The position numbers and the translations under genes are program-made. From a virus, in the IMG/VR virus record IMGVR_UViG_3300032278_004255, positions 1-51,200 of that record: a stretch of 51,200 nt of DNA; one strand, 5' to 3'. The notes under the pieces are model-generated. The model was not told the DNA's origin. It made no database searches and worked only from the letters and a program-made list of their open reading frames with translations. Positions 1,471 through 47,066 of this stretch are shown here, one piece after another (position 1 is the first letter of the stretch; each line of letters opens with the position of its first letter).

Positions 1471-1745
1471 CAGCCTACCTTCCCCCACGCCATGATCTCG
1501 GCCTCGAGGAAGCGGACCTCTTTCCCGCCGAGCTTCCGGTGGGGGAGGCCCTCACGTCGGGCCCACTTCAGCACGGTCTCTTTGCTCACGCCGAGACGTT
1601 GCCCCGCCTCCTCGGCGGTGAGCAACCGGAGCTCGGGGCGCTCGCGCTCCTCGAGGGCCTTCCGCACGGCGCCGTCGATCAGCTCGCGCAGCGTCGTCAC
1701 GTCGGTGATCACGACGCCGTTGTGCAGATGCTCGAGGTCAGCCAT
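1470..1745 (-). CDS. xis: small HTH protein, probable excisionase
   Basis: A 91-residue protein whose C-terminal half is a MerR/excisionase-type winged helix: LLTAEEAGQRLGVSKETVLKWARR, followed by a LGGKEVRFLEAEI wing. This family bends DNA at attachment sites and steers integrases towards excision. It sits directly before int with a TGATG stop-start overlap, so the two are translationally coupled. The start is the ATG at 1745, 8 bases inside the preceding methyltransferase gene and after GGAGGTGAGG; a GTG at 1757 is possible. It could instead be a transcriptional regulator. Excisionase is preferred from position. Confidence 0.75.
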   Translation of the reverse strand: MADLEHLHNGVVITDVTTLRELIDGAVRKALEERERPELRLLTAEEAGQRLGVSKETVLKWARREGLPHRKLGGKEVRFLEAEIMAWGKVG

Positions 1746-2748
1746 GGGCCACCTCACCTCCCTCGGGGATCAGCGGGTACTGGATGCCGCGGCATCGCTC
1801 CTCGATCAGCGGCACATAGTCGGGGTTGAGCTCGATCCCGACTCCTCGCCGGCCGAGTCGCAGCGCCTCCTCCAGCGTCGTCCCGCTGCCGGCGAAGGGG
1901 TCGAGCACGACGCCGTCGGGCGGAGCTCCGGCGAGGATGCAACGCGACGCGAGCGCGCGCGGGAACGTGGCGAAGTGCGCCTCGGTGTAGGGCTCCTGGG
2001 CGATCGTCCAGACCGTGCGCGCGTTGGCGCCGACCGGCCGGCCGTCGTCGTCCACGCGCGGTCGCCGCTCCGGGATGTCCTGGGCGAGGTTGTGGGAGGC
2101 GACCTTGCCGAGGCCGTCCGTTCCCTTGCTGCGCCGCCGCGTGCCGTAGGCGGTCAGCGTCTTCGGCTTGAGCGGAGTCCGAATCGCCTCGGCGTCGTAG
2201 TAGTAGCGGCTGCTCTTCGTCAGGAGAAAGACGTACTCGTGATTCCGGGCGGGGCGGTCGCGGACGGACTCCGGCATCGCGTTCGGCTTCCGCCAGATCA
2301 CGTCGGAGCGGAGCCACCACCCGTCGGCCTGCAGCGCCAGGGCCACGCGCCACGGGACTCCGACGAGGTCTTTCGGCTTGAGCCCCGGCGCGGTCCGATG
2401 CCGTCGCCTGCCGCTCGCTATCGCCGCCTCAGCCGCCACGCGGTGGTTGCGCGAGCTCACCACCGACGAGGTTCCGATGCCGCCGCTCCTCCCGCCCATG
2501 TAGGTGTCGCCGAGGTTCATCCAGAGCGTGCCGTCGGGTCGGAGCACTCGCCGGATGTCGGCGAAGACCGCGACGAGCTCGTCGACGAACGCGTCGGGCG
2601 TCGCCTCGAGGCCGATCTGTCCGGCGACCCCGTAGTCGCGCAGGTTCCAGTACGGCGGGCTGGTCACGACCGTCTGCACGGACTCGTCCTCGAGGTCGGC
2701 CAGGCGCTCGCGCACGTCGCCGACGAGGATGCGGAGGCGCTCCGACAT
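1738..2748 (-). CDS. DNA methyltransferase, SPPYW type (probably N4-cytosine)
   Basis: A 336-residue beta-class DNA methyltransferase. The catalytic motif IV SPPYW is near residues 30-34 (TSPPYWNLRDYG), and the AdoMet-binding motif I is near the C-terminus (DPFAGSGTT), so the catalytic motif precedes the cofactor motif as in this class. SPPY is more usual for N4-cytosine enzymes, whereas NPPY or DPPY marks N6-adenine enzymes; the base specificity is inference. No restriction enzyme is adjacent, so it is probably an orphan enzyme protecting phage DNA. ATG at 2748 overlaps the upstream stop (TGATG). Confidence 0.9.
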   Translation of the reverse strand: MSERLRILVGDVRERLADLEDESVQTVVTSPPYWNLRDYGVAGQIGLEATPDAFVDELVAVFADIRRVLRPDGTLWMNLGDTYMGGRSGGIGTSSVVSSRNHRVAAEAAIASGRRRHRTAPGLKPKDLVGVPWRVALALQADGWWLRSDVIWRKPNAMPESVRDRPARNHEYVFLLTKSSRYYYDAEAIRTPLKPKTLTAYGTRRRSKGTDGLGKVASHNLAQDIPERRPRVDDDGRPVGANARTVWTIAQEPYTEAHFATFPRALASRCILAGAPPDGVVLDPFAGSGTTLEEALRLGRRGVGIELNPDYVPLIEERCRGIQYPLIPEGGEVAHG

Positions 2749-3458
2749 CACCCCGCCTCGGCCTGGATGCGCTGCATCGTCTCGAGCCAGGTCGTGACGA
2801 CGCTGCTCGCCGCCACCTCGACGCCGTTGGCGTAGAGCACCACCCGCAGCGCTGACATGCTGCTGGTCTCCGGCGCCCGAGGCTTGGTCGGCGCCGCCCG
2901 CGACGGCTTCGCCTTCCGCGCGCGCTTCCGCGCTCCGCCGACGTTCTTCGGCGTGCTCACCGCCTTCTCGGGGCTCATGCGCTTCAGCCGGTAGTAGAGG
3001 GTCGACTCGGTGAGCCCGAGCGCTTTCGCTTCGGGCAGCTCGAGCAGCTCCGCGGCGGTGAGCTCGCGGCCCTTGTACGGGTAGGTCCTTCTCGTCTTCG
3101 GCATCCTCGCCTCCTCGCGCCGATCGGCGCTCTCGTCGGTCTCCGGGGAGGGGCCCGCCTCGGGCTCCTGGTGCTGCTCGGCGGGCTGGTCGGTGGGCTG
3201 CTCCGCACCGCCGAGCAGCATCGAACCGCCGGGGGCGAACCCGCCGGCGAGCTCCACGAGCTCGACGTCCGGCGTCTCCCCGCGGGCGTGAGCCGCGCCG
3301 ATCGGGCAGTCGGTGCAGCCGGCGGCGGCGAGGTGCCTCTGGCCCTTCGCGCCCCGGCCGCCGGCCTCCTTCCGCGCGCGCCGGAAGCGCTGGGTGCAGC
3401 TCGTCCTCGTGAGCTTCGTCGCCAGCCGCTCGCACCGGAACAGCTCGAGTTCAGCCAT
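2748..3458 (-). CDS. unknown early protein with Cys cluster
   Basis: A 236-residue protein with no recognised family. The N-terminal 60 residues are basic and Cys-containing (CERL, TSCTQRF, CTDCPIG). The middle (about 75-120) is acidic, Pro/Glu/Gln-rich and probably disordered. A conserved-looking segment, ELTAAELLELPEAKALGL then TESTLYYRLKR, looks like a helix-turn-helix (about 130-160), followed by a Lys/Arg-rich stretch. The same LYxR-type motif recurs in the protein at 6606-7229. It may bind nucleic acid. ATG at 3458, overlapping the upstream gene by 8 bases. Confidence 0.6.
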   Translation of the reverse strand: MAELELFRCERLATKLTRTSCTQRFRRARKEAGGRGAKGQRHLAAAGCTDCPIGAAHARGETPDVELVELAGGFAPGGSMLLGGAEQPTDQPAEQHQEPEAGPSPETDESADRREEARMPKTRRTYPYKGRELTAAELLELPEAKALGLTESTLYYRLKRMSPEKAVSTPKNVGGARKRARKAKPSRAAPTKPRAPETSSMSALRVVLYANGVEVAASSVVTTWLETMQRIQAEAG

Positions 3459-6609: not shown

Positions 6610-7229
6610 CCGCCGCTCCCCCGCCGACGAAGCGGCCGAGGCGGCGTCCGCACCGCGCGCGAGACCTCCCAGCCGTACTTCACGAGCCGGACGTAGATGG
6701 TGCTCGCCGCCGCGCGCGCCTCGGGGAGCCGAGCGAGCTGGCCGATCGAGTAGAGCTCGTCGTCCTCCCAGCGCCAGACGAGCGCACTCTGACGGCCGCG
6801 CGCGCCGCGGCCGATGCTGGCGCGCGCCGGGAGCGCCGAGGCCTCGCCAGGCTCGCGTCGCTGGGTGACGCGCTCACCGCGCGGAGCGTGGTCGGGCCGC
6901 ATGGGGCCACGCCCAGCGAGCCAGGCACCCACGAGCTCGGGCGCTTCACCCTCGGCGTGGCCGAAGCGCCCGGCGAGCGCGTCGAGCGCGTCCTCGCCGA
7001 CCGCGACCCGCAGTCGACGGGCGAAGGTCCGGAGCGCGTCGGTTTCGATCTGCCGGATCCTCTCACGCGTCACGCCGAACGCGGCCGCGACGTCCTCGAG
7101 GGCCGCCCCGTCCGGCCAGTTCGATCGGAGCATCTGACAGCGAGCGTCCTCGGCGTACGGGGTCTCGAAGTCGAGGAACGGCTCGTCGGCCTGCTCGTCG
7201 TGCGCGAGCGCTTCGGTTCGGGAGCTCAT
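6606..7229 (-). CDS. sigma-70 region 4-like DNA-binding protein
   Basis: A 207-residue protein. Residues 44-72 (LEDVAAAFGVTRERIRQIET, then DALRTFARRL) match the HTH of sigma-70 region 4, which contacts the -35 element. No region 2 is visible. A disordered Arg/Ala-rich linker follows, then a C-terminal HTH-like unit (YSIGQLARLPEARAAASTIYV, about 158-180) echoing the protein at 2748-3458. It could redirect host RNA polymerase or act as a -35 recognising activator; it may be an anti-host factor. ATG at 7229 overlaps the recombinase stop (ATGA). Confidence 0.75.
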   Translation of the reverse strand: MSSRTEALAHDEQADEPFLDFETPYAEDARCQMLRSNWPDGAALEDVAAAFGVTRERIRQIETDALRTFARRLRVAVGEDALDALAGRFGHAEGEAPELVGAWLAGRGPMRPDHAPRGERVTQRREPGEASALPARASIGRGARGRQSALVWRWEDDELYSIGQLARLPEARAAASTIYVRLVKYGWEVSRAVRTPPRPLRRRGSGG

Positions 7230-8494
7230 GAGGTCACCTCCGACAGCTCGGGGATGGCGCGGTCCATGTCGGCCAGGTCGCCGAGGCCGAGCTCGGCGAC
7301 GAGCCTGGCGGCGCGCCGGTAGCGGTTGATCATCGCGCTCGAGCGGTGGCCGGTGCGGTCGGCGACCCAGGTCTCGGTCTTCTCGTTCGCGAGCGCGATC
7401 GTGATGAAGGTCGCGCGGAGGTCGTGGAGCCGGATCGGCTGCCGCGTCGCGCTCCGCTCGTAGAGCTCGGGCCGATCGATCCCGGCGCTCCGGAGCTGCT
7501 CGCGAAACCGCGGCGTTGCACGGCCGTCGCCGCGGGTGATCAGCGGCTCGCCCGCCTCGTCGACGAAGACGCGGCCGTCGCCACCGCGGCGCGCGCGCCA
7601 GGCCCGGAGCGCGCGGGCGCAGTCCGGGCGCAGCGCCCAGGCCCGCGGTTCCCGGGTCTTGTTCTCGACCAGGGCGACCGCGCCGCGCTCGAGGTCCACG
7701 TCCGCCCAGGCCAGGTCGGAGGCCTCGCTCCGCCGCATCCCCTCCCGCGACATGAAGCCGTACAGCAGTCGGAAGTGCAGCGGGATCGAGCGGCAGCCGA
7801 GGAGCGCGCGGTCCTCGTCGGGGTAGAGGAACGTGTAGGCCTTCTCGTCGGTCAGCTTCGGCAGGAACCCCTTGGGCAGCGGGTTCGCCGTGATCACGCG
7901 CGCGGGGAAGTGCGCGAGCGTCAACACGCGCGCCATCACCTGCGCGACGTGTCGGCGCGACGCGGGCGCGAGGTGGGCGGGGAGGCGCTCCATGACGGTG
8001 AGCGCGTGGTCGAGCGTGATCTCCTCGAGAGGGATCGTCCCGATGATCGGGTAGACGTGATTCTCGAGGCGCCGCGCGTCCTGCGTCGCGGTCTTCTTCT
8101 TCTTGATGTGGTCCGGGTACCGGCTCCGCAGCTCGCCGCTCGTCCACGCGTAGCCGAACTCGGCGAAGGTCATCGACGCGACGGGCGGCGGCGCCGCCTC
8201 GCCGGTGCTGAGACGGCGGATCGCCTCGAGCGGGCGCTCGTGCCGGTCATCGCTCCCGCCGAGCAGCTGGAGCAGCGTCCTCGCGAGCTCCGCGCCGACG
8301 GGCTTCTCGGCGTCGCGGAGGAGGCAGGCCTGCTCGGCGAGCAGGCGCGCCCGGGAGCGGGCCTTCTCCTCGTCCTCGACCTCCCGCGGGCAGGTGGTGA
8401 GCTGGACCGTGCACCGCGAGCTCCCGCGGAGGGTCACGATCGCGCGCCAGCATCCGCCGTAGTAGCGGATCGATCCCGTCGCTTGCCGGCTCAC
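7226..8494 (-). CDS. second tyrosine recombinase
   Basis: A 422-residue site-specific recombinase distinct from the integrase at the left end. Core-binding domain about 108-205; catalytic residues Arg254 (EGMRRSEASDL), His357-x-x-Arg360 (HDLRATF), His383 (TGHRS) and Tyr392 (INRYRR) all present, so it should be active. It starts with GTG at 8494, overlapping the upstream HTH gene by GTGA. Possible roles are resolution of genome multimers, inversion, or a relic integrase from an older element. No inverted gene or crossover site was identified nearby. Confidence 0.88.
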   Translation of the reverse strand: MSRQATGSIRYYGGCWRAIVTLRGSSRCTVQLTTCPREVEDEEKARSRARLLAEQACLLRDAEKPVGAELARTLLQLLGGSDDRHERPLEAIRRLSTGEAAPPPVASMTFAEFGYAWTSGELRSRYPDHIKKKKTATQDARRLENHVYPIIGTIPLEEITLDHALTVMERLPAHLAPASRRHVAQVMARVLTLAHFPARVITANPLPKGFLPKLTDEKAYTFLYPDEDRALLGCRSIPLHFRLLYGFMSREGMRRSEASDLAWADVDLERGAVALVENKTREPRAWALRPDCARALRAWRARRGGDGRVFVDEAGEPLITRGDGRATPRFREQLRSAGIDRPELYERSATRQPIRLHDLRATFITIALANEKTETWVADRTGHRSSAMINRYRRAARLVAELGLGDLADMDRAIPELSEVTS

Positions 8495-10244: not shown

Positions 10245-11299
10245 GCTCGACCTCCGAACGCGTGCGGGAACTCGCGCACGCGCAGGTCCTCCGGCCACTC
10301 GTCCATTGCGCCGCCCTTGCGGTCGCGAGTGCGCAACGCGACGCGCTCGGGGTCGAGGTCTTCTCCATCCAGGCCCTCGTGTAGATCGAACGGGTCGACT
10401 CCGAGCAGCTTTGCGAGAGAGTCCGAGCTGACGTAGGGCCTCGCCCCGAGCTGCTTCACGAACACCGGCACGCCGGCCTCGCGCGCCTGCTCGATCGCCT
10501 GCCGAGCCCAGGCCAGGTCGAACGGTCGCGCCCCCGGCCCGCTCTCTCCGCCGACCACGATCCAGTCGAGGCCGTGCGGCTTGGGGCCGGAGCCCAGATG
10601 AACGGGGGTCAGCCAGTTGTAGTCGCACCCTGAGCGCCACCGGACAGGCCCCAGCGCCGGTTCGTAGCTCACCCAGCGGACAGCTGCGGGGACGCCGAGC
10701 AGCACGGGGATCCGCTCGTTCGCGGTAGCCTGGTCCTCGACGCTCACGCCGATCCAGACGTTCGGCAGGGGCCAGGCTTCGGCACACCCGAGGTACCTCA
10801 GCGCCAGGCCGAGCCCGCCTGCGCTCACGGTGTCGAGCGCATCCGCGGCGGCTCGACGGCACCTCCGAAGCGCATCCCCCGGCGACAGGTGGCCGCCCTC
10901 GGCCGCCCACGCGAAGAACTCGGCCGCCCGCTCGGGCCGCTTCGTGAGCACCTGGAAGGTGTGCTGCGGCGCCGCCGCCATCACCCCGAAGACGGCCGCG
11001 ATGTACTCGAACGGCACCGACTCGTGGAAGAGGTCGCTCATCGAGTTGACAAACACCATCCGCGGCTTGCGCCACCGCAGCGGGTCCCCGAGGTGCTCCG
11101 GGACCTGGCGCACCGTGCCGTTCCACCGCGCGCGCGGCTTGCCCTCAGCGGTGAGGCGCACGAGGCCCTCGTACGGCTTCCCCGGACCTGCGAAACGCCG
11201 CGCGACCACCTCTGCGTAGCAGTGCCGGCAGCCCTCCGAGACGCGCGAGCAGCCGCGGAGAGGGTTCCACGTGGCGTCCGTCCACTCGATCTTGCTCAC
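10241..11299 (-). CDS. DUF5131 / phage Gp37-Gp68 family protein (radical-SAM-like)
   Basis: A 352-residue protein opening with the family signature KIEWTDATWNPLRGCSRVSE, then GCRHCYAE, which places Cys17, Cys24 and Cys27 as a presumed iron-sulfur ligand set. Further family motifs: VFVNSMSDLFHE, FQVLTKRPER, WIGVSVEDQ and VGGESGPGARP. The family is related to radical SAM enzymes and is frequent in mycobacteriophages and other phages; its substrate is unknown to me. GTG at 11299 overlaps the upstream stop. Co-transcribed with the ASCH gene. Confidence 0.88.
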   Translation of the reverse strand: MSKIEWTDATWNPLRGCSRVSEGCRHCYAEVVARRFAGPGKPYEGLVRLTAEGKPRARWNGTVRQVPEHLGDPLRWRKPRMVFVNSMSDLFHESVPFEYIAAVFGVMAAAPQHTFQVLTKRPERAAEFFAWAAEGGHLSPGDALRRCRRAAADALDTVSAGGLGLALRYLGCAEAWPLPNVWIGVSVEDQATANERIPVLLGVPAAVRWVSYEPALGPVRWRSGCDYNWLTPVHLGSGPKPHGLDWIVVGGESGPGARPFDLAWARQAIEQAREAGVPVFVKQLGARPYVSSDSLAKLLGVDPFDLHEGLDGEDLDPERVALRTRDRKGGAMDEWPEDLRVREFPHAFGGRA

Positions 11300-11853
11300 C
11301 TCGACCTCCGCTCCGGACGAGGGCGTCCGGCGTCGCGGCGCGCGGCCGCGAAGATTTCGCGGTGCAGCCGGAGGCGGCGCCGCTCGTTGCTGGGTGTCCG
11401 CGGGTCCTCGAGGCGGGCGTCGATGGCGCGCACCACGATCGCCCGGCCGCGCCGGACCCACTGGTAGAGGGCGTCGAGGCTGGGGGCTTCGAGCCCGTAC
11501 TCGTCGGCGAGCTGCGCCTCGATCTCGGCCGAGGGCAGCCGGAGGATGCGGCGCTTCATCGCCGCTCGAGCTCGGCGGCGCGCGGCGAGCCGGCGGCCGG
11601 CGTCGCGGCGCGAGTAGAGCAAGAAGACGAGCTGGTCGAGCCAGAGCATCTCCGGGTCCGCGCCGGCCCGGGTCCGGGAGATGTCGCGGAGGAACGCGCG
11701 CGCCTCCTTCGACTCGGGCAGGGGCGTCGAGATCCGCGCGCGGCGGACCGGGGCGCTCGAGGAGTCCCCCGCGTCCCCGCGTGGGGGGGAGCACGACGGG
11801 GGCGCAGAGGACTCCTCCAGCGCCGCGGCGGCGGCGTGGTCGTGACGGCTCAC
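11296..11853 (-). CDS. unknown basic early protein
   Basis: A 185-residue protein. The N-terminal 50 residues are low-complexity (Ala, Ser, Pro-rich). Residues 50-185 are helical and very Arg-rich, with ARAFLRDISRTRAGADPEML, WLDQLVFLLYSRRDAG and SLDALYQWVRRGRAIVVRAI. The last could be an HTH-like element, so nucleic-acid binding is plausible. GTG at 11853, GTGA overlap with the HNH gene upstream. Confidence 0.55.
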   Translation of the reverse strand: MSRHDHAAAAALEESSAPPSCSPPRGDAGDSSSAPVRRARISTPLPESKEARAFLRDISRTRAGADPEMLWLDQLVFLLYSRRDAGRRLAARRRARAAMKRRILRLPSAEIEAQLADEYGLEAPSLDALYQWVRRGRAIVVRAIDARLEDPRTPSNERRRLRLHREIFAAARRDAGRPRPERRSR

Positions 11854-19339: not shown

Positions 19340-19901
19340 GCTCGCTGGCTCCGCCTTCCGCGGCCTGGTGCTGCTCGGCCTGCTCGCGCTTTACGCGGGG
19401 ATCCTGTCGGGCAGGGTCAGCGCGTCCGGTGCGCCGCGTCCCGTGGACGCCGAGGCATGCGCCCGCGTCTCGGTCGGCGAGGCGGGCTGGGATCCGGCTA
19501 CCGGGGACGCGGCCGCGATCACCAACGTGCTGCGTCGCCGCGCCGAGCGCCGGGGCGTGTCGATCTCGCGGATGGCGCGCCTCTACTCCACCGGGCACTT
19601 CGACGGGGCGCGCAGCCGACGCCGTTGGATCGCGGGCCTCACGCTCGCCGCGTCTCGCCCCTCCGGGTGGCCGGCGCAGCTCGCCTGGCGCGGTGACTAC
19701 CGCGCGCGCTGGCTGGCGATGGTCGAACACGTGCGCTCTGTGCTCCGGGGCGAGGTCCCGGATCCGTGCCCTGGCGCAGACCACTGGGGAGGCCCGATGG
19801 ACGACTGGCGAGCGGAGCGCGCCGGCTGGGCGCGCGTCGAGTGCCGAAGTCCGACGCGCAATCGCTTCTGGCGTTCCGGAAGAGTCCGGGGCGCATCGTA
19901 G
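19332..19901 (+). CDS. secreted or anchored protein, possible cell-wall enzyme
   Basis: A 189-residue protein with an N-terminal hydrophobic signal or anchor (LAGSAFRGLVLLGLLALYAG, residues 4-23) and a helical domain: ARVSVGEAGWDPATGDAAAI, RRRAERRGVSISRMARLYST, WIAGL, DHWGG, CRSPTRNRFWR. SVGEAGW with TRNRFW recalls lysozyme-like or transglycosylase-like proteins with an active-site Glu, but I cannot assign a family. It could act in lysis or superinfection control. ATG 19332 lies 8 bases inside the previous gene. Confidence 0.58.
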   Translation: MRRLAGSAFRGLVLLGLLALYAGILSGRVSASGAPRPVDAEACARVSVGEAGWDPATGDAAAITNVLRRRAERRGVSISRMARLYSTGHFDGARSRRRWIAGLTLAASRPSGWPAQLAWRGDYRARWLAMVEHVRSVLRGEVPDPCPGADHWGGPMDDWRAERAGWARVECRSPTRNRFWRSGRVRGAS

Positions 19902-19932
19902 CCAATGTATCTGTCAACGGAGAACGCATATC

Positions 19933-20202
19933 ATGAACGAGAGTAAGCAGGTCGAGTCGAGGCAGGCGTCCGGCCCGAGCATCGAGGACGAGCACGGGGC
20001 CGAGTTCCTCGACGTAGACGGACGCCCCGTCTACCTCACCCACGACACCGTCATGAGCGCGCGCCCGAACGACCGGGCGCTGCTCGAGAACGGGGAGTCG
20101 TACGTGACGCTCGTGTGGCTGAAGGGCCATCGGCGTCCGGTCGCGCTCCAGAGCACCTGGGCGGAGTTCCGCTCCTGGCGCTTCAGCCGGAACGCGGCGT
20201 GA
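19933..20202 (+). CDS. unknown small protein
   Basis: An 89-residue protein starting at ATG 19933 after GGAGAA. The N-terminal 25 residues are polar, then FLDVDGRPVYLTHDTVMSAR, SYVTLVWLKGHRRPVALQST and WAEFRSWRFSR suggest a small beta-rich fold. No family recognised. It is followed one base later by the 45-codon gene at 20204. Confidence 0.55.
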   Translation: MNESKQVESRQASGPSIEDEHGAEFLDVDGRPVYLTHDTVMSARPNDRALLENGESYVTLVWLKGHRRPVALQSTWAEFRSWRFSRNAA

Positions 20203-20203
20203 G

Positions 20204-20341
20204 ATGAACGACCAGCGTCGACGAAGGCGCCGAGTGCGGCGTCACCACCGAACGCGCAGCCGACGGGCGGCGCTTCGGAGGCAGATGCGAGACGCGCTCG
20301 GCGCCCTCGTCGGCGTGCTCCTCTGGAGCCGCAGCCGATGA
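20204..20341 (+). CDS. 45-aa Arg-rich microprotein
   Basis: A 45-residue frame starting ATG one base after the preceding stop and ending in TGA that overlaps the next start (ATGA). The N-terminal 27 residues are extremely basic (RRRRRRVRRHHRTRSRRAAL), followed by a short hydrophobic C-terminus (DALGALVGVLLW). It could bind nucleic acid or membranes. Support comes only from tight coupling on both sides. Confidence 0.42.
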   Translation: MNDQRRRRRRVRRHHRTRSRRAALRRQMRDALGALVGVLLWSRSR

Positions 20342-21588
20342 AGATTGCAGGCTACGAGACACACCCCGCCGCGGACCTCTTCCCGATGATGGAGGAGGAG
20401 GAGCTCCGCGAGCTCGCGAGCGACATCAAGCGAACCGGCCAGCGGCACGCCGTCGTCGTCATCGGGTCGAAGATCCTCGACGGCCGGAACCGTGTGCGCG
20501 CCTGCGAGATGGTCGGCGTCGAGCCGCGATTCAGCCAGTACGAGGGCCCGAAGGATGTCGCATCCATCCTCGACTACGTCGTCTCGCTGAACCTGTCGCG
20601 CCGGCATCTCTCGGCGAGCCAGCGCGCCTGGCTCGGCGCGCTGCTCGAGGAGAGGTACGCGGAGGCAGGGATCGAGAAGAAGCGCGAGGGGGGCCGCAGG
20701 GGCGGGCAGGCGGCCAAGCATCGGGCCGATCGGCCAAATGCTTCCGAGTCGGACAGTTCCCACCGTTCTCGCGACCGCGCCGCCGCGGCCGTCGGGTCCA
20801 GCGGCAGGTCAGTACAGAAGGCCAAGGCGGTGCGGGAGAAGGCGGCCGACGAGGTTCAGCGGGCCGTCGCGGCCGGCGACCTGACCGTCGACGCCGCGAG
20901 CGAGCTCGCGAAGATCGACGACCACGACACGCAGCGCGAGATCCTCGAGCGGAGCAACGGGAAGCCCGGGAACATCCGCGCCCACATCCGCCAGCACCAG
21001 CAGCGCGAGATCGCGAAGGAGCTCGAGAAGGCGCCGCCCCCGCCTCCGAGCGGGCCGTACCGGGTGATCGTCGCCGACCCGCCGTGGAAGTACGACCTTC
21101 GCGCCACAGACGCGACGCACCGCGGGAACCTCCCGTACCCGCCGATGACCACGGACGCGATCTGCGCGCTCCCGGTGGGTGACCTCGCCGAGGAGGGGTC
21201 GGTGCTCTGGATGTGGGTGACGAACGGTCACCTCCTGGGCTCGGGCGGCGTCAGCGACGGGCTCCGCGTGGTGCACGCCTGGGGCTTCGAGCCGAAGGCG
21301 CTGCTGACGTGGGCGAAGCCGAAGCTCGGCCTCGGGCACTACCTGCGCAACGTGACGGAGCACTGCATCCTCGCGGTGCGCGGCAAGCCGACCATCGTCC
21401 TCGACAACGAGACGACGCTGCTCGAGGCGCCGGTGCGGGAGCACTCGCGGAAGCCCGACGAATTCTACTCGCTCGTCGAGAAGCTCACCCCCGGCTCCAA
21501 GATCGAGCTGTTCGCGCGCGAGCCGCGGGAGGGCTGGGCGGCCTGGGGCGCCGAGGTCGACAAGTTCGCGGGGATGACGTCGCGATGA
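20338..21588 (+). CDS. ParB-like / MT-A70 adenine methyltransferase fusion
   Basis: A 416-residue two-domain protein. Residues 1-100 are a ParB/Spo0J-like nuclease-fold domain (ELASDIKRTGQRHAVVV, DGRNR at 49-53 and NLSRRHLSASQRA). A basic linker with a possible HTH (about 150-200) follows. From about 240 there is an MT-A70 domain with the N6-adenine catalytic motif DPPW (247-250, in VIVADPPWKY), then LWMWVTNGHL, HCILAVRGKP, and HSRKPDEFY near the C-terminus. It probably methylates adenine in phage DNA, with the ParB part directing binding. Overlaps both neighbours by four bases. Confidence 0.9.
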   Translation: MKIAGYETHPAADLFPMMEEEELRELASDIKRTGQRHAVVVIGSKILDGRNRVRACEMVGVEPRFSQYEGPKDVASILDYVVSLNLSRRHLSASQRAWLGALLEERYAEAGIEKKREGGRRGGQAAKHRADRPNASESDSSHRSRDRAAAAVGSSGRSVQKAKAVREKAADEVQRAVAAGDLTVDAASELAKIDDHDTQREILERSNGKPGNIRAHIRQHQQREIAKELEKAPPPPPSGPYRVIVADPPWKYDLRATDATHRGNLPYPPMTTDAICALPVGDLAEEGSVLWMWVTNGHLLGSGGVSDGLRVVHAWGFEPKALLTWAKPKLGLGHYLRNVTEHCILAVRGKPTIVLDNETTLLEAPVREHSRKPDEFYSLVEKLTPGSKIELFAREPREGWAAWGAEVDKFAGMTSR

Positions 21589-21779
21589 GCGATCGCGAGG
21601 TCGAGATCAGGCGCGAGCTCGAGCGCGTGCGCTCGCAGATCGACGAGGCGTACTGGCTGTTCACGCGCACCGCGCGCGGCCTCCCGCCGTCGATGGCTCG
21701 CCCAGACCTCTACGCGCGTCGCCGCGCGCTACGGCGGGAGCTCGTTCAGCTGCGGGAGGTCCGCCGGTGCGGGTGCTGA
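21585..21779 (+). CDS. small helical protein (64 aa)
   Basis: A 64-residue charged helical protein (VEIRRELERVRSQIDEAYWL, LYARRRALRRELVQLREVRR), ending CGC. ATG 21585 overlaps the methyltransferase stop (ATGA), and its own 3' end overlaps the initiator gene by 13 bases and carries that gene's GGGAGG ribosome site. Function unknown. Confidence 0.6.
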   Translation: MSDREVEIRRELERVRSQIDEAYWLFTRTARGLPPSMARPDLYARRRALRRELVQLREVRRCGC

Positions 21780-22756
21780 TCCCAGGGTGGCTCGCCTCGA
21801 TGCGTGGCCCGGGCCTCGGCCCGAAAGTCGTGTTCGGAACGACGTCTGGAGACACCGGCTTCCTCAGCTGCGCTGCGCTCGCGCGTGACCTGGGGACGTC
21901 GGAGCGGAGCGTCCGGCGCTGGGCCGAGGAGCTGGCCGACCGCGGGCTCTGGGAGCTGAACCAGGCCGGGCGGCAGGGGTTCGAGTTTGTACTACTCGTG
22001 GACAGGAAATCCGGACAGCCTGTCCGGACGAGCGAGACCGGTCGTCCGGACAATCTGTCCGGACGAGGCCTCCCCGATACCCGGACAGACTGTCCGGATG
22101 AGTCGACCGGACAATCTGTCCGGACAACCGCCACCGAAATCCGGACAGCCTGTCCGGACGAGCGACCCGCGGAAACGCCTCGACCGGACAGCCTGTCCGG
22201 ATATCCGCCCGGCGGCGGCGGGGGCGGCGCCGCGCCCACCTCTTCCCTAGATCAGGATCCTTCGGATCCTCCCCCCCCTATAGTCCCCCCCCTCCCCGCC
22301 GAGGCCGCTGCGGAGCGGAGCCGTGGTGGTGGTGGCGAGGTCGACTTCGATGCCGCAGCAGCCGAGCGAGACCGGCTCGCGCTGGCGTCGAAGTCGGCGA
22401 TGAAGCGGGTCATCGAGGCTCGGGGCGGCGAGTACCAGCGGGACGACCGCGAGCAGCACCTCGAGGTCGGCACCACCGCGGCGGCCTACGCGGAGAAGCA
22501 CGGGCTCGAGCTGCGCGAGGTCCTCGACGTCTGGGCGAAGCGCTGGATCGAGACCGTCAAGGTCCGTAGCGCGAGGTCATGGGCGACGTTCGTCGCCGCT
22601 GAGGTGAGCGGGGCGCCGTGGCGGAAGCAGCGTGGTCGGGAGGATGGCTACCAGCGCGCCCCTGCCCCGGCGCACTGGCAGACGGGAGACAGGGATTTCG
22701 GAGACGGGGACATCCCGGCTTCCGAGGAGGACCAACGGGTGATCAAGTATGGATGA
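21767..22756 (+). CDS. replication initiator (lambda O-like) with internal origin
   Basis: A 329-residue protein starting at GTG 21767 after GGGAGGT. Residues 30-72 form a winged-helix DNA-binding domain (FLSCAALARDLGTSERSVRR, then WAEELADRGLWELNQ). Residues 82-145 are encoded by six palindromic DNA repeats and read as a low-complexity linker (SGQPVRTSETG, RPDNLSGRG). A Pro-rich stretch (about 160-180) and a C-terminal helical domain (KRVIEARGGEY, LREVLDVWAKRWIETV) follow, probably binding the helicase loader encoded next. The design (N-terminal DNA binding, iterons inside the gene, C-terminal partner contact) matches lambda O. Overlaps the loader gene by 8 bases. Confidence 0.82.
   Translation: MRVLIPGWLASMRGPGLGPKVVFGTTSGDTGFLSCAALARDLGTSERSVRRWAEELADRGLWELNQAGRQGFEFVLLVDRKSGQPVRTSETGRPDNLSGRGLPDTRTDCPDESTGQSVRTTATEIRTACPDERPAETPRPDSLSGYPPGGGGGGAAPTSSLDQDPSDPPPPIVPPLPAEAAAERSRGGGGEVDFDAAAAERDRLALASKSAMKRVIEARGGEYQRDDREQHLEVGTTAAAYAEKHGLELREVLDVWAKRWIETVKVRSARSWATFVAAEVSGAPWRKQRGREDGYQRAPAPAHWQTGDRDFGDGDIPASEEDQRVIKYG
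22011..22200. repeat. six palindromic iterons, probable replication origin
   Basis: Six copies of CCGGACA-NNN-TGTCCGG at 22011-22027, 22046-22062, 22081-22097, 22107-22123, 22141-22157 and 22184-22200. Every 7-base arm is exact and only the central three bases vary (GCC, ATC, GAC, ATC, GCC, GCC). Start-to-start spacings are 35, 35, 26, 34 and 43. They lie inside the initiator gene and upstream of the loader gene, as the lambda origin does inside O. Confidence 0.85.
22254..22298. repeat. hairpin and poly-C tracts beside the iterons
   Basis: AGGATCC-TTC-GGATCCT (22254-22270) is a perfect 7-bp hairpin, followed by C8 (22271-22278), TATAGT and another C8 (22285-22292). The minus strand is therefore G-rich enough for a quadruplex. 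In the protein it only encodes a Pro-rich linker. It may assist strand opening or fork arrest at the origin, which is inference. Confidence 0.5.
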
Positions 22757-23411
22757 GCCGCAGGACATCAGCGATGCGCTCCAGCGCGTCCTCGCTCGAG
22801 GTCGAGAGACGCTCGCCAGCGAGGAGGAGATCAGAGCGTGGGAGCTTCACCAGGACCGAAGGGACCGGCGCGACCGGCTCGCCGCCTCGGGCGTCGATGA
22901 GCGCCTCGATGCTGCCGGCGCGGCGGCTCTACTCGACGACCGCATGTGGGACACACGCGCCCTCCGGCTGGTTCGTGCCTGGATCGCCTCACCCCGTCCG
23001 GCACTCATGCTCCTCGGAGACCCGGGGCAGGGAAAGACCGTCGCTGCGGCCTGGGCCCTGTCGCGCTGTGCCGGTCGCTACATTCGAGCCAACGAGCTGT
23101 GCGAGCTCAGAGCTTCTCGGTGGCGAGGCCGCGACCGCTACCAGAAGCACCTGACGACCGAGCTGCTCGTCATCGACGAGCTCGGCACCGAGGCCGACAT
23201 CTCGCTTGCTGCTCCCACTCTGCAGGATGTCATCGACGCGCGGCAGCGTCTCCCGCGGCGAACCCTGCTCCTGGGCAACGACCTCGACCTGGTGGCTCGC
23301 TACGACGCGCGCACTCTCGACCGCCTCGGCATCGAGGGGGACGACCACGGGATCGCCATCCTTCGCACCCTCCGCGGCCCATCGCTTCGTGTGGGGGCCC
23401 GTGCCCGCTGA
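22749..23411 (+). CDS. DnaC-like helicase loader ATPase
   Basis: A 220-residue AAA+ protein of the DnaC/IstB type. Walker A GDPGQGKT at residues 90-97, Walker B LLVIDE at 139-144, and sensor-1-like LLLGNDLDL near 197. The N-terminal 80 residues are helical and would contact the replicative helicase. It replaces lambda P by function, loading host DnaB at the iteron origin with the initiator. ATG 22749 overlaps the initiator end by 8 bases. Confidence 0.85.
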   Translation: MDEPQDISDALQRVLARGRETLASEEEIRAWELHQDRRDRRDRLAASGVDERLDAAGAAALLDDRMWDTRALRLVRAWIASPRPALMLLGDPGQGKTVAAAWALSRCAGRYIRANELCELRASRWRGRDRYQKHLTTELLVIDELGTEADISLAAPTLQDVIDARQRLPRRTLLLGNDLDLVARYDARTLDRLGIEGDDHGIAILRTLRGPSLRVGARAR

Positions 23412-23775
23412 CTTCCCCTACGAGCGCCACGTGGACGCTGCCGAGCAGGAGCGCTACCGCCGGGCCGGCAGGTCGGCCGGCCAGCCCGAGCGACTCCGGC
23501 AGCTCCTCGCTCGCGGCAGTGAGCTCGCGTCCGACGCCCACGCGCCGCCCGGTCGGCCGGTGCAGAGCGGGTCCGCGTGGCTCGACCGGCGGCACCTCTC
23601 CGAGGACCACGAGCGGCTCTCGCCCTGGGTCCCGGCGAACGAGCGCGAGCTGAAGTCGGGCGCGCACCTTGGCGAGGTGACCGGGGGTTGGGTGTGCCTC
23701 GCGCGCAACCTCGAGACCGGCCCCCGCGAGCTCGTGCTCGCGCTCGAGTACGCCGGCCGCGCGGAGGTCGCGTGA
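23401..23775 (+). CDS. unknown middle protein
   Basis: A 124-residue protein starting at GTG 23401, inside the end of the loader gene. Arg/Ala/Gly-rich N-terminal half (RYRRAGRSAGQPERLRQLLA), then AWLDRRHLSEDHERLSPWVP and a beta-rich C-terminus (GGWVCLARNLETGPRELVLA). No family recognised. Confidence 0.58.
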   Translation: MPADFPYERHVDAAEQERYRRAGRSAGQPERLRQLLARGSELASDAHAPPGRPVQSGSAWLDRRHLSEDHERLSPWVPANERELKSGAHLGEVTGGWVCLARNLETGPRELVLALEYAGRAEVA

Positions 23776-24020
23776 ACACCGACTCGGTCACTCGGACCCT
23801 GGTGTCCCGACTCCGTGCGCTCGAGTACCTGGCGTCCGTCGAGACCAGCCGAGGCGTCGAGGTGGTCGCCGTGCGTCACCCGCAGACGCGCGTCCACGGT
23901 GAGCCCTGGCTGGTCGCCCTCATCTCCACCGCGGACTGGTCGGTCGACTACGCCGTGCCGGTCTACCGGTCTGCCATCGAGGGGGCCGTCGCCGGTGTGC
24001 TGGACGGGGGACGCCGGTGA
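23772..24020 (+). CDS. unknown small protein
   Basis: An 82-residue protein, GTG 23772 overlapping the previous stop (GTGA). One helix (TLVSRLRALEYLASVE), then strands VEVVAVRHPQTR and PWLVALISTADWSV and a C-terminal helix: a compact alpha-beta fold. Unrecognised. Confidence 0.55.
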   Translation: MNTDSVTRTLVSRLRALEYLASVETSRGVEVVAVRHPQTRVHGEPWLVALISTADWSVDYAVPVYRSAIEGAVAGVLDGGRR

Positions 24021-24253
24021 GGCCTGCACCGCCGATCATCGTGAGTCTTGAGCAGGGGCTCGTCGTGGTCCGCATCGGAGTCCTCAGCCTCCACATGTGC
24101 CCGAAGAAGGCGATGGAGGTCGCGAGCTCCATCGCGCACATCAGCTCGGCGGCGCTGGCGGAGGCCGAGGAGCACGCCAGGCTCGCCAAGGAGATCGCAG
24201 CGACGGCCCTCCACGATGCGGTACGGGCGCGCGGCGACGCGGAGGACGAGTAG
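24017..24253 (+). CDS. unknown small protein
   Basis: A 78-residue protein with a beta-rich N-terminus (IIVSLEQGLVVVRIGVLSLH) and a long C-terminal helix rich in Ala and Glu. GTG 24017 overlaps the previous stop (GTGA). It ends directly before the gene at 24254. Unrecognised. Confidence 0.55.
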   Translation: MRPAPPIIVSLEQGLVVVRIGVLSLHMCPKKAMEVASSIAHISSAALAEAEEHARLAKEIAATALHDAVRARGDAEDE

Positions 24254-24901
24254 GTGATCTTCCTGACGGCGGTCGAGGAGCTCCAGGCGTGCCTCTCGGG
24301 GGAGCTCGAGGGGTGGATGGGCGCGCGCTCGTGGCTGGGCGCCTACGTCGACTATGGAGCGGGCGGCGCCCCATCGGGTGGGGACGACAACACCGAGCCG
24401 ACCGCGGCCGCCCTACATGCGGCGCGCGTCATGGACCTCGTCGAGCGCACCCTGCGCGCGCTCCCTCGGTCGCAGGCGGAGATCCTCGTGGAGCGCTACC
24501 GGCCCCGCGGGCCCTACGCGCCCCTGGGGCTTCGCCAGCACTTCGGCGAGCTCGCGCCTGTTGTGGTCCTGCTCGCCTCGCACGCCGAACTCGCCGCGGC
24601 GCTCCTCGAGCACGTCGAGGATGAGGACCTGAGGCGCTGGATGCGCCCCAAGCGAGGTCAGACGTCGAGGGAGGGGCTCGACGCCCTCGGGGGCGCCGAG
24701 CTGCTGCGATTCGTCGTGCGTGGAGCCACGTCCTCGCGTGACCTGCGGCGCCTCGTGAAGTCCGTCCACGGTCACGCAGGGGCCGCTCTCCAAGATGCGC
24801 TCGTGGCCTACCGTGAAGAGCACGAACGCCAGCGCCGAGAGGGTAGGGAGCGGACGCCCTCACGTGCGGCACGTCTCCGAGCGGCCCTGGGGGTCGGGTG
24901 A
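24254..24901 (+). CDS. unknown protein in late-regulator position
   Basis: A 215-residue, mostly helical protein. The segment RVMDLVERTLRALPRSQAEI, then LVERYRPRG, recalls sigma-like or RinA/ArpU-type late regulators, in which a helix of this kind precedes a DNA-binding motif. The likeness is weak. Residues 130-200 are basic and helical. GTG 24254 abuts the previous stop. Being almost the last gene before the late region makes a late-transcription activator or antiterminator plausible, but this is positional inference. Confidence 0.5.
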   Translation: MIFLTAVEELQACLSGELEGWMGARSWLGAYVDYGAGGAPSGGDDNTEPTAAALHAARVMDLVERTLRALPRSQAEILVERYRPRGPYAPLGLRQHFGELAPVVVLLASHAELAAALLEHVEDEDLRRWMRPKRGQTSREGLDALGGAELLRFVVRGATSSRDLRRLVKSVHGHAGAALQDALVAYREEHERQRREGRERTPSRAARLRAALGVG

Positions 24902-25254
24902 AGGCCTCAGCGGAAAGGGTAGCGGTCGCGGAGGCCGTGGAGATGCTCGGGGCGCCCGACGCGCGCTGGCTGCGCAGGGTCTTGCGGCGGCGGGCGCGGA
25001 CGTGTGGCGCGGAACTCCTGATCAACGAGACTCCCGCGGCCGCTCGGCCGACGTACGTGGTCGACATGGATGCCGTGAGCCAGCACTGCCCCGACCTGAT
25101 CAGCGTCGAGTTCCGCGTCGCTCGCGCGTTGCGGTCGGAGGCGCTCTCGAACCGCACGCAGCTGCGCGCCATCGAGGGCCGTCTCGAGGCGATGCAGGAG
25201 CAGCTCAACATCCTGACCGAGTGCGTCCGGCAGATGCGCCATAGCCCCCGGTGA
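24898..25254 (+). CDS. unknown protein with C-terminal coiled coil
   Basis: A 118-residue protein. Residues 8-60 (AVAEAVEMLGAPDARWLRRV, ELLINETPAA and TYVVDMDAV) could be a degenerate winged helix. Residues 85-112 form a heptad-like helix (LRAIEGRLEAMQEQLNILTE). GTG 24898 overlaps the previous stop by four bases. It may be a DNA-binding dimer acting with its upstream neighbour. Confidence 0.52.
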   Translation: MKASAERVAVAEAVEMLGAPDARWLRRVLRRRARTCGAELLINETPAAARPTYVVDMDAVSQHCPDLISVEFRVARALRSEALSNRTQLRAIEGRLEAMQEQLNILTECVRQMRHSPR

Positions 25255-46301: not shown

Positions 46302-47066
46302 ATGTTCTTTCGCATCCTACAACACCTCCTGCCGGACGGCGCGGCGTGGCGCACCACGGTGCAGAAGCGGCTCCGGACCCTGCTCGAGGCGCTCGCCGAG
46401 GAGCCGGCGGCGGTGCGCGTGTTCGTCGACAAGGTCTATCGGGACCTCTTCCCGGAGAGCACGCGGGAGCTCGCGGCCTGGGAGCGCTTCTTCGTCCTCC
46501 CGGGCAACGGAGACGACACGACCCGCCGCCAGCGCCTGGCCGCTGCGTGGCAGGAAACCGGGGGGCAGGCGCCGCGGTACCTGCAGGACATCGTCCAGGC
46601 CGCTGGCTTCGACCTCTACGTGCACGAGTGGTGGTCATCGGGGCCGCCGTGGGTGGCTCGAGACCCCCGCGCCCACACCCAGGTGCCGCTGATCGGGACG
46701 GTCCAATGCGGCGAGCCGGACGCCCTGTGCGGAGAGGTCAGCGCGCAGTGCAACGCGTTCCTCGCGAACGAGCCCGGCTACCTCGTCAACATCGACCTGA
46801 CCCCGACCGCCCCTCCGCGGGTCCCAGACGACCCGGCCGCCTGGCCCTACTTCGTCTACTTCGGCGGCGCGTCCTTCGGCGACCGGGTGTCCATCACGGT
46901 CGCCCGCCGTCGCGAGCTCGAGGACCTGCTCCTGAAGCTCTGCCCGGCCCAGCACTGGATCGTCCTGATGGTCGACTGGGTGGGCGAGGCGACCACGCGC
47001 GTGACCCTCGCGGGCGACACCCGCACGACCTTGAGCGGAGACACCCGCTTCACCCTCGGACTCTGA
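46302..47066 (+). CDS. Mu gp48-like tail protein (DUF2313)
   Basis: A 254-residue protein related to Mu gp48/YmfQ: ILQHLLPDGAAWRT, RDLFPESTRELAAWERFFVL, QRLAAAWQETGGQAPRYLQD, then PYFVYFGG and KLCPAQHWIVLMVDW. The C-terminal TRVTLAGDTRTTLSGDTRFT is a short tandem motif. Normally it follows gp47/J, as the outer wedge. Here the fibre and lipoprotein genes intervene. ATG 46302 has no strong ribosome site. Confidence 0.82.
   Translation: MFFRILQHLLPDGAAWRTTVQKRLRTLLEALAEEPAAVRVFVDKVYRDLFPESTRELAAWERFFVLPGNGDDTTRRQRLAAAWQETGGQAPRYLQDIVQAAGFDLYVHEWWSSGPPWVARDPRAHTQVPLIGTVQCGEPDALCGEVSAQCNAFLANEPGYLVNIDLTPTAPPRVPDDPAAWPYFVYFGGASFGDRVSITVARRRELEDLLLKLCPAQHWIVLMVDWVGEATTRVTLAGDTRTTLSGDTRFTLGL

Follow-up and report, generated by a model that had tools for sequence, protein, structure and literature searches.

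Genes and features of the locus

The window analysed here is the whole 51,200-nt stretch of the IMG/VR virus record IMGVR_UViG_3300032278_004255, a 51.2-kb virus contig with a head/tail module (gpA-type terminase, E-type capsid protein, tape-measure-like protein and Baseplate J). The features of its putative replication locus are collected in Table 1, where the comparison is made with a sister phage, L033 (IMGVR_UViG_3300025109_000007). A predicted O-like initiator gene, which contains six palindromic iterons and a second conserved DNA block with a C-rich motif (the C-box), is directly followed by a helicase-loader gene, whose first 8 bp are shared with the end of the initiator gene. The DnaC-like nature of this loader, as proposed in the initial annotation of the locus, is supported by its PHROG matches.

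Table 1. Coordinates of the features of the putative replication locus in the window
Feature	Position	Strand	Description
Replication initiator gene (O-like)	21767..22756	+	329 aa; predicted N-terminal winged HTH, disordered linker and C-terminal four-helix domain; L033 protein 82% identical
Predicted winged HTH codons (aa 29-87)	21851..22027	+	Recognition helix around SERSVRR; AlphaFold2, weak HTH_36 match, structural matches
Iteron 1	22011..22027	.	CCGGACA-GCC-TGTCCGG; arms kept in L033
Iteron 2	22046..22062	.	CCGGACA-ATC-TGTCCGG; arms kept in L033, spacer altered
Iteron 3	22081..22097	.	CCGGACA-GAC-TGTCCGG; arms kept in L033, spacer altered
Iteron 4	22107..22123	.	CCGGACA-ATC-TGTCCGG; arms kept in L033, spacer altered
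Iteron 5	22141..22157	.	CCGGACA-GCC-TGTCCGG; arms kept in L033, spacer altered
Iteron 6	22184..22200	.	CCGGACA-GCC-TGTCCGG; kept in L033
Second conserved DNA block	22243..22297	+	55 nt identical in L033; contains AGGATCC-TTC-GGATCCT (22254-22270)
C-box CCCCCTATAGTCCCCC	22274..22289	+	About 75 bp past the last iteron; identical in L033; recurs in phage initiator genes
C-terminal helical domain codons (aa 194-281)	22346..22609	+	AlphaFold2; better supported than the N-terminal part
DnaC-like helicase loader	22749..23411	+	phrog_50 E=1.3e-12, phrog_3277 E=7.7e-9; Walker A GDPGQGKT, Walker B LLVIDE

The predicted initiator protein

The assignment of the initiator is based on several predictions. 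The Pfam family HTH_36 matches aa 32-61 with E=0.005 and 17 bits, under the curated cut-off of 25, and the PHROG families of O-like and replication-initiation proteins match the protein weakly (E 0.005-0.2), so that membership of the phage O-like or HTH_36 family is not established by sequence. AlphaFold2, for which the input comprised only two sequences, predicts a helix-turn-helix with a wing at approximately aa 35-76 with low confidence (pLDDT about 50), and the structural matches of this predicted N-terminal domain are wHTH proteins with Z of about 5. The iterons lie, as the initial annotation had it, within the coding sequence of a putative wHTH protein. The linker at approximately aa 80-190, where the iterons fall, is modelled with low confidence as disordered. 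The C-terminal part, when modelled alone, forms four helices with pLDDT of 82, and the structure search returned no match for this domain over the usual background; that it contacts the loader or the helicase is a guess.

The sequence search of solved structures gave no match for either the initiator or the loader, no relatives of the initiator were found in named phages, and the alignment search of viral contigs found the sister phage alone. Despite the sub-threshold family matches, the best reading is that the protein would work like an O-like initiator.

The iteron array and its conservation as DNA

The motif scan of the 51.2-kb record for CCGGACA-NNN-TGTCCGG returned exactly the array that had been reported earlier, namely, six sites with exact arms within 190 bases, at the start-to-start spacings of 35, 35, 26, 34 and 43. 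In the whole record, no further exact copies occur outside 22011-22200, the next-best site, with two mismatches, lies at 46716, and the reversed-motif control gave 0 matches. Since only about 7e-4 exact matches per whole window are estimated from the base composition (71% GC), six of them in 190 bp are not due to chance, and a chance origin is ruled out by the exact-match count together with the empty reversed control. Some of the palindromes are longer than 7 nt per arm when read from the sequence, such as TCGTCCGGACA-ATC-TGTCCGGACGA. The iterons are inverted repeats with perfect 7-nt arms and an N3 spacer, a symmetry suited to a dimer. All six are within the open reading frame of the initiator, about 245 bp or more past its start and 3' of the codons of the DNA-binding domain.

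The sister phage carries the same six iterons at identical spacings. None of the 84 arm bases is changed in it, while 5 of the 18 spacer bases are, and the synonymous-capable sites of the arms are all kept (0/32 changed) against 92 changes in 296 such sites (31%) elsewhere in the gene (Fisher p=1.7e-5), which argues for selection on the DNA and not on the protein. Moreover, the iterons span all three reading frames and, therefore, encode unrelated peptides (SGQPVRT, PDNLSGR, TRTDCPD, TGQSVRT, IRTACPD and PDSLSGY). It is thus supported by inference that the iterons are conserved as DNA elements and tolerated by a disordered linker, in agreement with the suggestion of the initial annotation that the protein accommodates them as a linker.

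The second conserved block and the C-box

The conservation extends to a second block beside the iterons, in which none of the 22 synonymous-capable sites of 22241-22303 is changed in the sister phage (p=9e-4). The 30-mer at 22240 (22240-22269) is among the 0.1% of the window with the lowest duplex stability; the region 22235-22284 has 58% GC and is not A+T-rich in absolute terms, and weaker stretches exist elsewhere in the window. The 40-mer with the highest pyrimidine content in the whole window also falls in this block.

The C-box within this block was found with exact matches at no fewer than 119 loci of viral contigs (L188-L306) against 5 for its reversed control. Among the matches listed, an ORF of at least 150 aa lies over the box at 42 of the 119 loci, the longest such ORF being on the strand of the box in 34 of them, and the replication-initiation family phrog_270 alone is matched by 18 of these 42 ORFs; the other 77 of the 119 listed loci have no ORF of at least 150 aa over the box. 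In the 22 genes among the matches listed that were assigned as initiator-like by judgement, the C-box is located at 0.39-0.68 of the gene length (0.51 in the window), in frame 0 in 14 genes and in frame 1 in 8, and the stretch before it is richer in A+T than its gene (p=4e-5), whereas in the window the 60 bp preceding the box are not A+T-rich. The exact box is present in Flavonifractor phage Cormatin and Hafnia phage Pocitis76, with one mismatch in Corynebacterium phage phi16 and with two mismatches in Serratia phage BZS1; neither lambda, phi80 and P22 nor 20 of the 21 wHTH initiators sampled below contain it. Many of the copies listed are non-coding and belong to contigs with genes for a terminase or a portal protein, and some copies lie in C-rich low-complexity DNA. 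By eye, several of the non-coding boxes in the terminase/portal contigs L200, L219, L248, L226, L203 and L253 stand just past a terminator-like hairpin. The search of the open-access literature found no mention of CCCCTATAGTCCC or its complement, and, among the matches listed, the papers with shorter 10-12-mers were unrelated, as judged by titles.

Tentatively, and rather on the doubtful side, the C-box CCCCCTATAGTCCCCC may be taken as a cis element that is conserved in the replication origins of phages and has not been described so far, and which is placed in the middle of the initiator gene after the linker repeats, in many cases directly behind (3' of) a stretch relatively rich in A+T, in any reading frame and in phages with hosts from several phyla. 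Such an element might act at strand opening or at helicase/primase loading. The non-coding copies near the head or packaging genes could perhaps mark second origins, like oriR of SPP1, or be a wholly other signal. If the box is an origin element, it would provide a shared landmark for locating phage origins by sequence.

Palindromes in other phage initiator genes and the recognition helix

In the scan for clusters of at least three CGGACA-N3-TGTCCG sites, such clusters were found inside the wHTH initiator genes of several other phage lineages (L131-L134, L137, L135/L140, L139), the products of which match PHROG families 1032, 270, 6493 and 391. The CGGACA clusters also occur outside phage initiators, in Prevotella intergenic DNA and in a long Streptomyces-phage ORF. 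The Prevotella-group contigs L141, L145-L147, L149 and L151 carry CGGACA-type palindromes with 22-bp spacing, mostly without a long ORF, so that here a similar palindrome is put to another use, and in L041, L136 and L148 the same palindromes lie near the C-terminus of a streptomycete-type virion/protease-like long ORF, in which no HTH was seen. In the genomes of the Olsenella group (L144, L150, L154), a frame that encodes the HTH-like helix SERQVRR has a cluster of CGGACA palindromes at its 3' end, possibly the same pairing of helix and half-site in a chromosome or prophage.

The generality of this anatomy was assessed on 21 phage wHTH initiator genes drawn by protein similarity alone, in which palindromes were scored with an exact seed against codon shuffles. 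Repeated palindromes at p<=0.05 were obtained in 13 of the 21 genes, with lineage-specific half-sites; by this exact-seed score, the remaining eight have no significant palindrome repeat, while degenerate repeats are visible by eye in some of them. Besides these 13 genes, repeated palindromes scored in the same scan in gene 18 of P22 (TTTACC-N5-GGTAAA, four sites, at the annotated origin) and in gene 15 of phi80 (TTCCCG-N4-CGGGAA, three sites, at the annotated gp15 binding sites). The O gene of Edwardsiella phage GF-2, in the gene order cI-antirepressor-cII-O-P, contains three ATCCCAA-type palindromes, and repeats in the O-like gene of MD8 were noted previously (PMC8508860). From this comparison, it seems that in many phage wHTH initiators the DNA of the linker contains the palindromic binding sites of the protein itself, and the DNA specificity of an initiator would thus often be readable from its own gene.

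The CGGACA arms may be a first testable case of such reading, as they appear to be associated with a particular recognition helix. The pattern [STDE][ED]R-x-[VIL]-RR, to which SERSVRR of the window conforms, is encoded 20-450 bp upstream at 5 of the 119 palindrome-chosen loci, the sister phage being one of the five, where random positions would give 0.45 (p=1e-4). In the set of 21 genes drawn by protein similarity, the strict form [DE]R-x-[VIL]-RR was present only in Yavru (SERTIRR) and PPF1 (DERSVRR), and exact CGGACA-N3-TGTCCG sites only in the same two genes, with at least three mismatches in the other 19 (Fisher 1/210); this association is post hoc, having been noticed before testing, and the query that drew most of the 21 genes contained the helix SERTVRR. 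The pairing of CGGACA arms with the [DE]R-x-[VIL]-RR helix is accordingly considered as a hypothesis with support, not proof, and no other evidence in this analysis speaks more strongly for a binding of the iterons by the encoded protein itself. The aligned HTH cores were also used as a search query, for which their conservation was too low to be useful.

The locus as a probable replication origin

The arrangement is most probably a theta-type, lambda/O-type origin of replication located within the initiator gene of the phage, the product of which would bind the six iterons. This reading follows from the six exact sites, their conservation as DNA over three frames, the predicted disordered linker, the neighbouring loader gene and the recurrence of the same anatomy in other initiators, and it is well supported, by inference rather than by experiment. 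According to the scheme known for lambda, the N-terminal wHTH of the initiator would bind each palindromic iteron as a dimer, and the six occupied iterons would form an O-some-like nucleoprotein complex that might strain and open the neighbouring weak block at 22240-22300. The initiator would then recruit the DnaC-like loader, the product of the next, overlapping gene, by which the host DnaB helicase could be placed on the opened DNA.

The initial annotation had also proposed an origin with the logic of lambda, and this part is probably right, while the palindromic sites that it regarded as a contrast with lambda are not one, because O dimers bind the iterons of ori-lambda, which have the form of inverted repeats (PMC5043065), and the sites of P22 and phi80 are palindromic as well. 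Both in lambda and in the window, the origin (a putative one in the window) lies inside the initiator gene between the N-terminal DNA-binding and the C-terminal codons, inverted-repeat iterons serve initiator dimers (dimer binding being presumed for the window), a region of low stability, in the window only a relative one, lies beside the iterons, and the loader gene is immediately downstream. However, lambda has four annotated iterons inside its O gene, of 19 bp and spaced by about 20-24 bp, a 40-bp A+T-rich DUE and a P-type loader, whereas here there are six 17-bp iterons with perfect 7-nt arms at 26-43 bp, a block that is C-rich and weak only in relative terms, in a GC-rich context, and a DnaC-like loader. 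These differences are a matter of degree. The number of six iterons per origin is not new either, since Stx phages have six inside the O gene (PMC7466680); by the description in that paper, their origins differ in iteron sequence and phage lineage.

Similarly, P22 gene 18 and phi80 gene 15 share with the window repeated palindromes in the initiator gene at the annotated origin or binding sites and differ in half-sites and spacers, and in P22 the gene behind the initiator encodes a DnaB-like helicase, not a loader. The O protein of GF-2 and other HTH_36-type initiators likewise have a wHTH followed by a linker with several palindromes (in GF-2, in the order repressor-CII-O-P), but with lineage-specific half-sites and different recognition helices. 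In SPP1, gp38 binds repeats within its own gene 38 (oriL), and the genes of the loader gp39 and the helicase gp40 follow (PMC6316719); the initiator's repeats inside its own gene and the loader gene behind it are thus common to both, while the repeats of SPP1 are described as direct and a second origin, oriR, is present. The class of iteron-plasmid (Rep) origins was rejected for the window, where the sites are symmetric and inside the coding sequence, unlike the direct, asymmetric iterons of that class, to which Rep monomers bind and which lie outside or beside rep.

It is improbable that the iterons are instead an operator array, through which the wHTH protein or a phage repressor regulates the transcription of the replication operon, with the origin located elsewhere. 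Palindromic operators are common targets of wHTH proteins, a loader is able to act at a distance, and one protein could serve both roles; however, all the sites are deep inside the coding sequence, no other site with fewer than two mismatches exists in the record, the region upstream of the operon included, and in the studied relatives of the same layout such sites are the origin (PMC5043065; annotations of lambda, P22 and phi80). The promoter scan of 19500-25000 found none, which is weak evidence in DNA of 71% GC. It is very improbable that the palindromes act as hairpins in the mRNA, by which the initiator-loader transcript would be tuned in its translation or stability. Each iteron does form a hairpin of 7 bp, and the folding of the region is much stronger than that of shuffled sequences (z=-11), which is to be expected of palindromes in general, but a hairpin requires pairing and not identity, and yet the six arms are identical, with no compensatory change in the sister phage. 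In addition, the equivalent palindromes of other phages have spacers of 1-2 nt, which make poor hairpin loops, and no Rfam family reached the gathering score here, the sub-threshold hits being noise of self-complementarity. Although low-complexity linkers can be functional, it is hardly credible that a protein repeat of the linker is under selection and the DNA repeat is its by-product. This explanation was rejected, as it is contradicted by the frame test, the three frames giving three unrelated peptide sets, and by the unchanged synonymous-capable sites of the arms.

With the iterons read as an origin, a GC-rich uncultured phage lineage is placed in the replication scheme of lambda, and a ready candidate origin is provided. 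An intragenic lambda-type origin is itself of a known kind; the C-box is a new lead, and the pairing of helix and half-site is a testable rule.

Genome setting of the locus

The GC skew has no turning point at the iteron site. The record starts with a 3' fragment of tmRNA (1-205) that overlaps the end of an integrase-like gene (4-1488; Phage_int_M, just under the cut-off), and the left end is probably an attachment site in ssrA. A second tyrosine recombinase is encoded at 7229-8494 on the minus strand (Phage_integrase E=1.7e-15). Just upstream of the initiator, at 20338-21588, a ParB-like N-terminal part is fused to an MT-A70 methyltransferase part, and the window's left end contains the gene of an N6_N4 DNA methylase (1741-2760, minus strand). 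In the sister phage, a methyltransferase gene (10600-11640) with 72% DNA similarity to the latter methylase is located directly upstream of the initiator.
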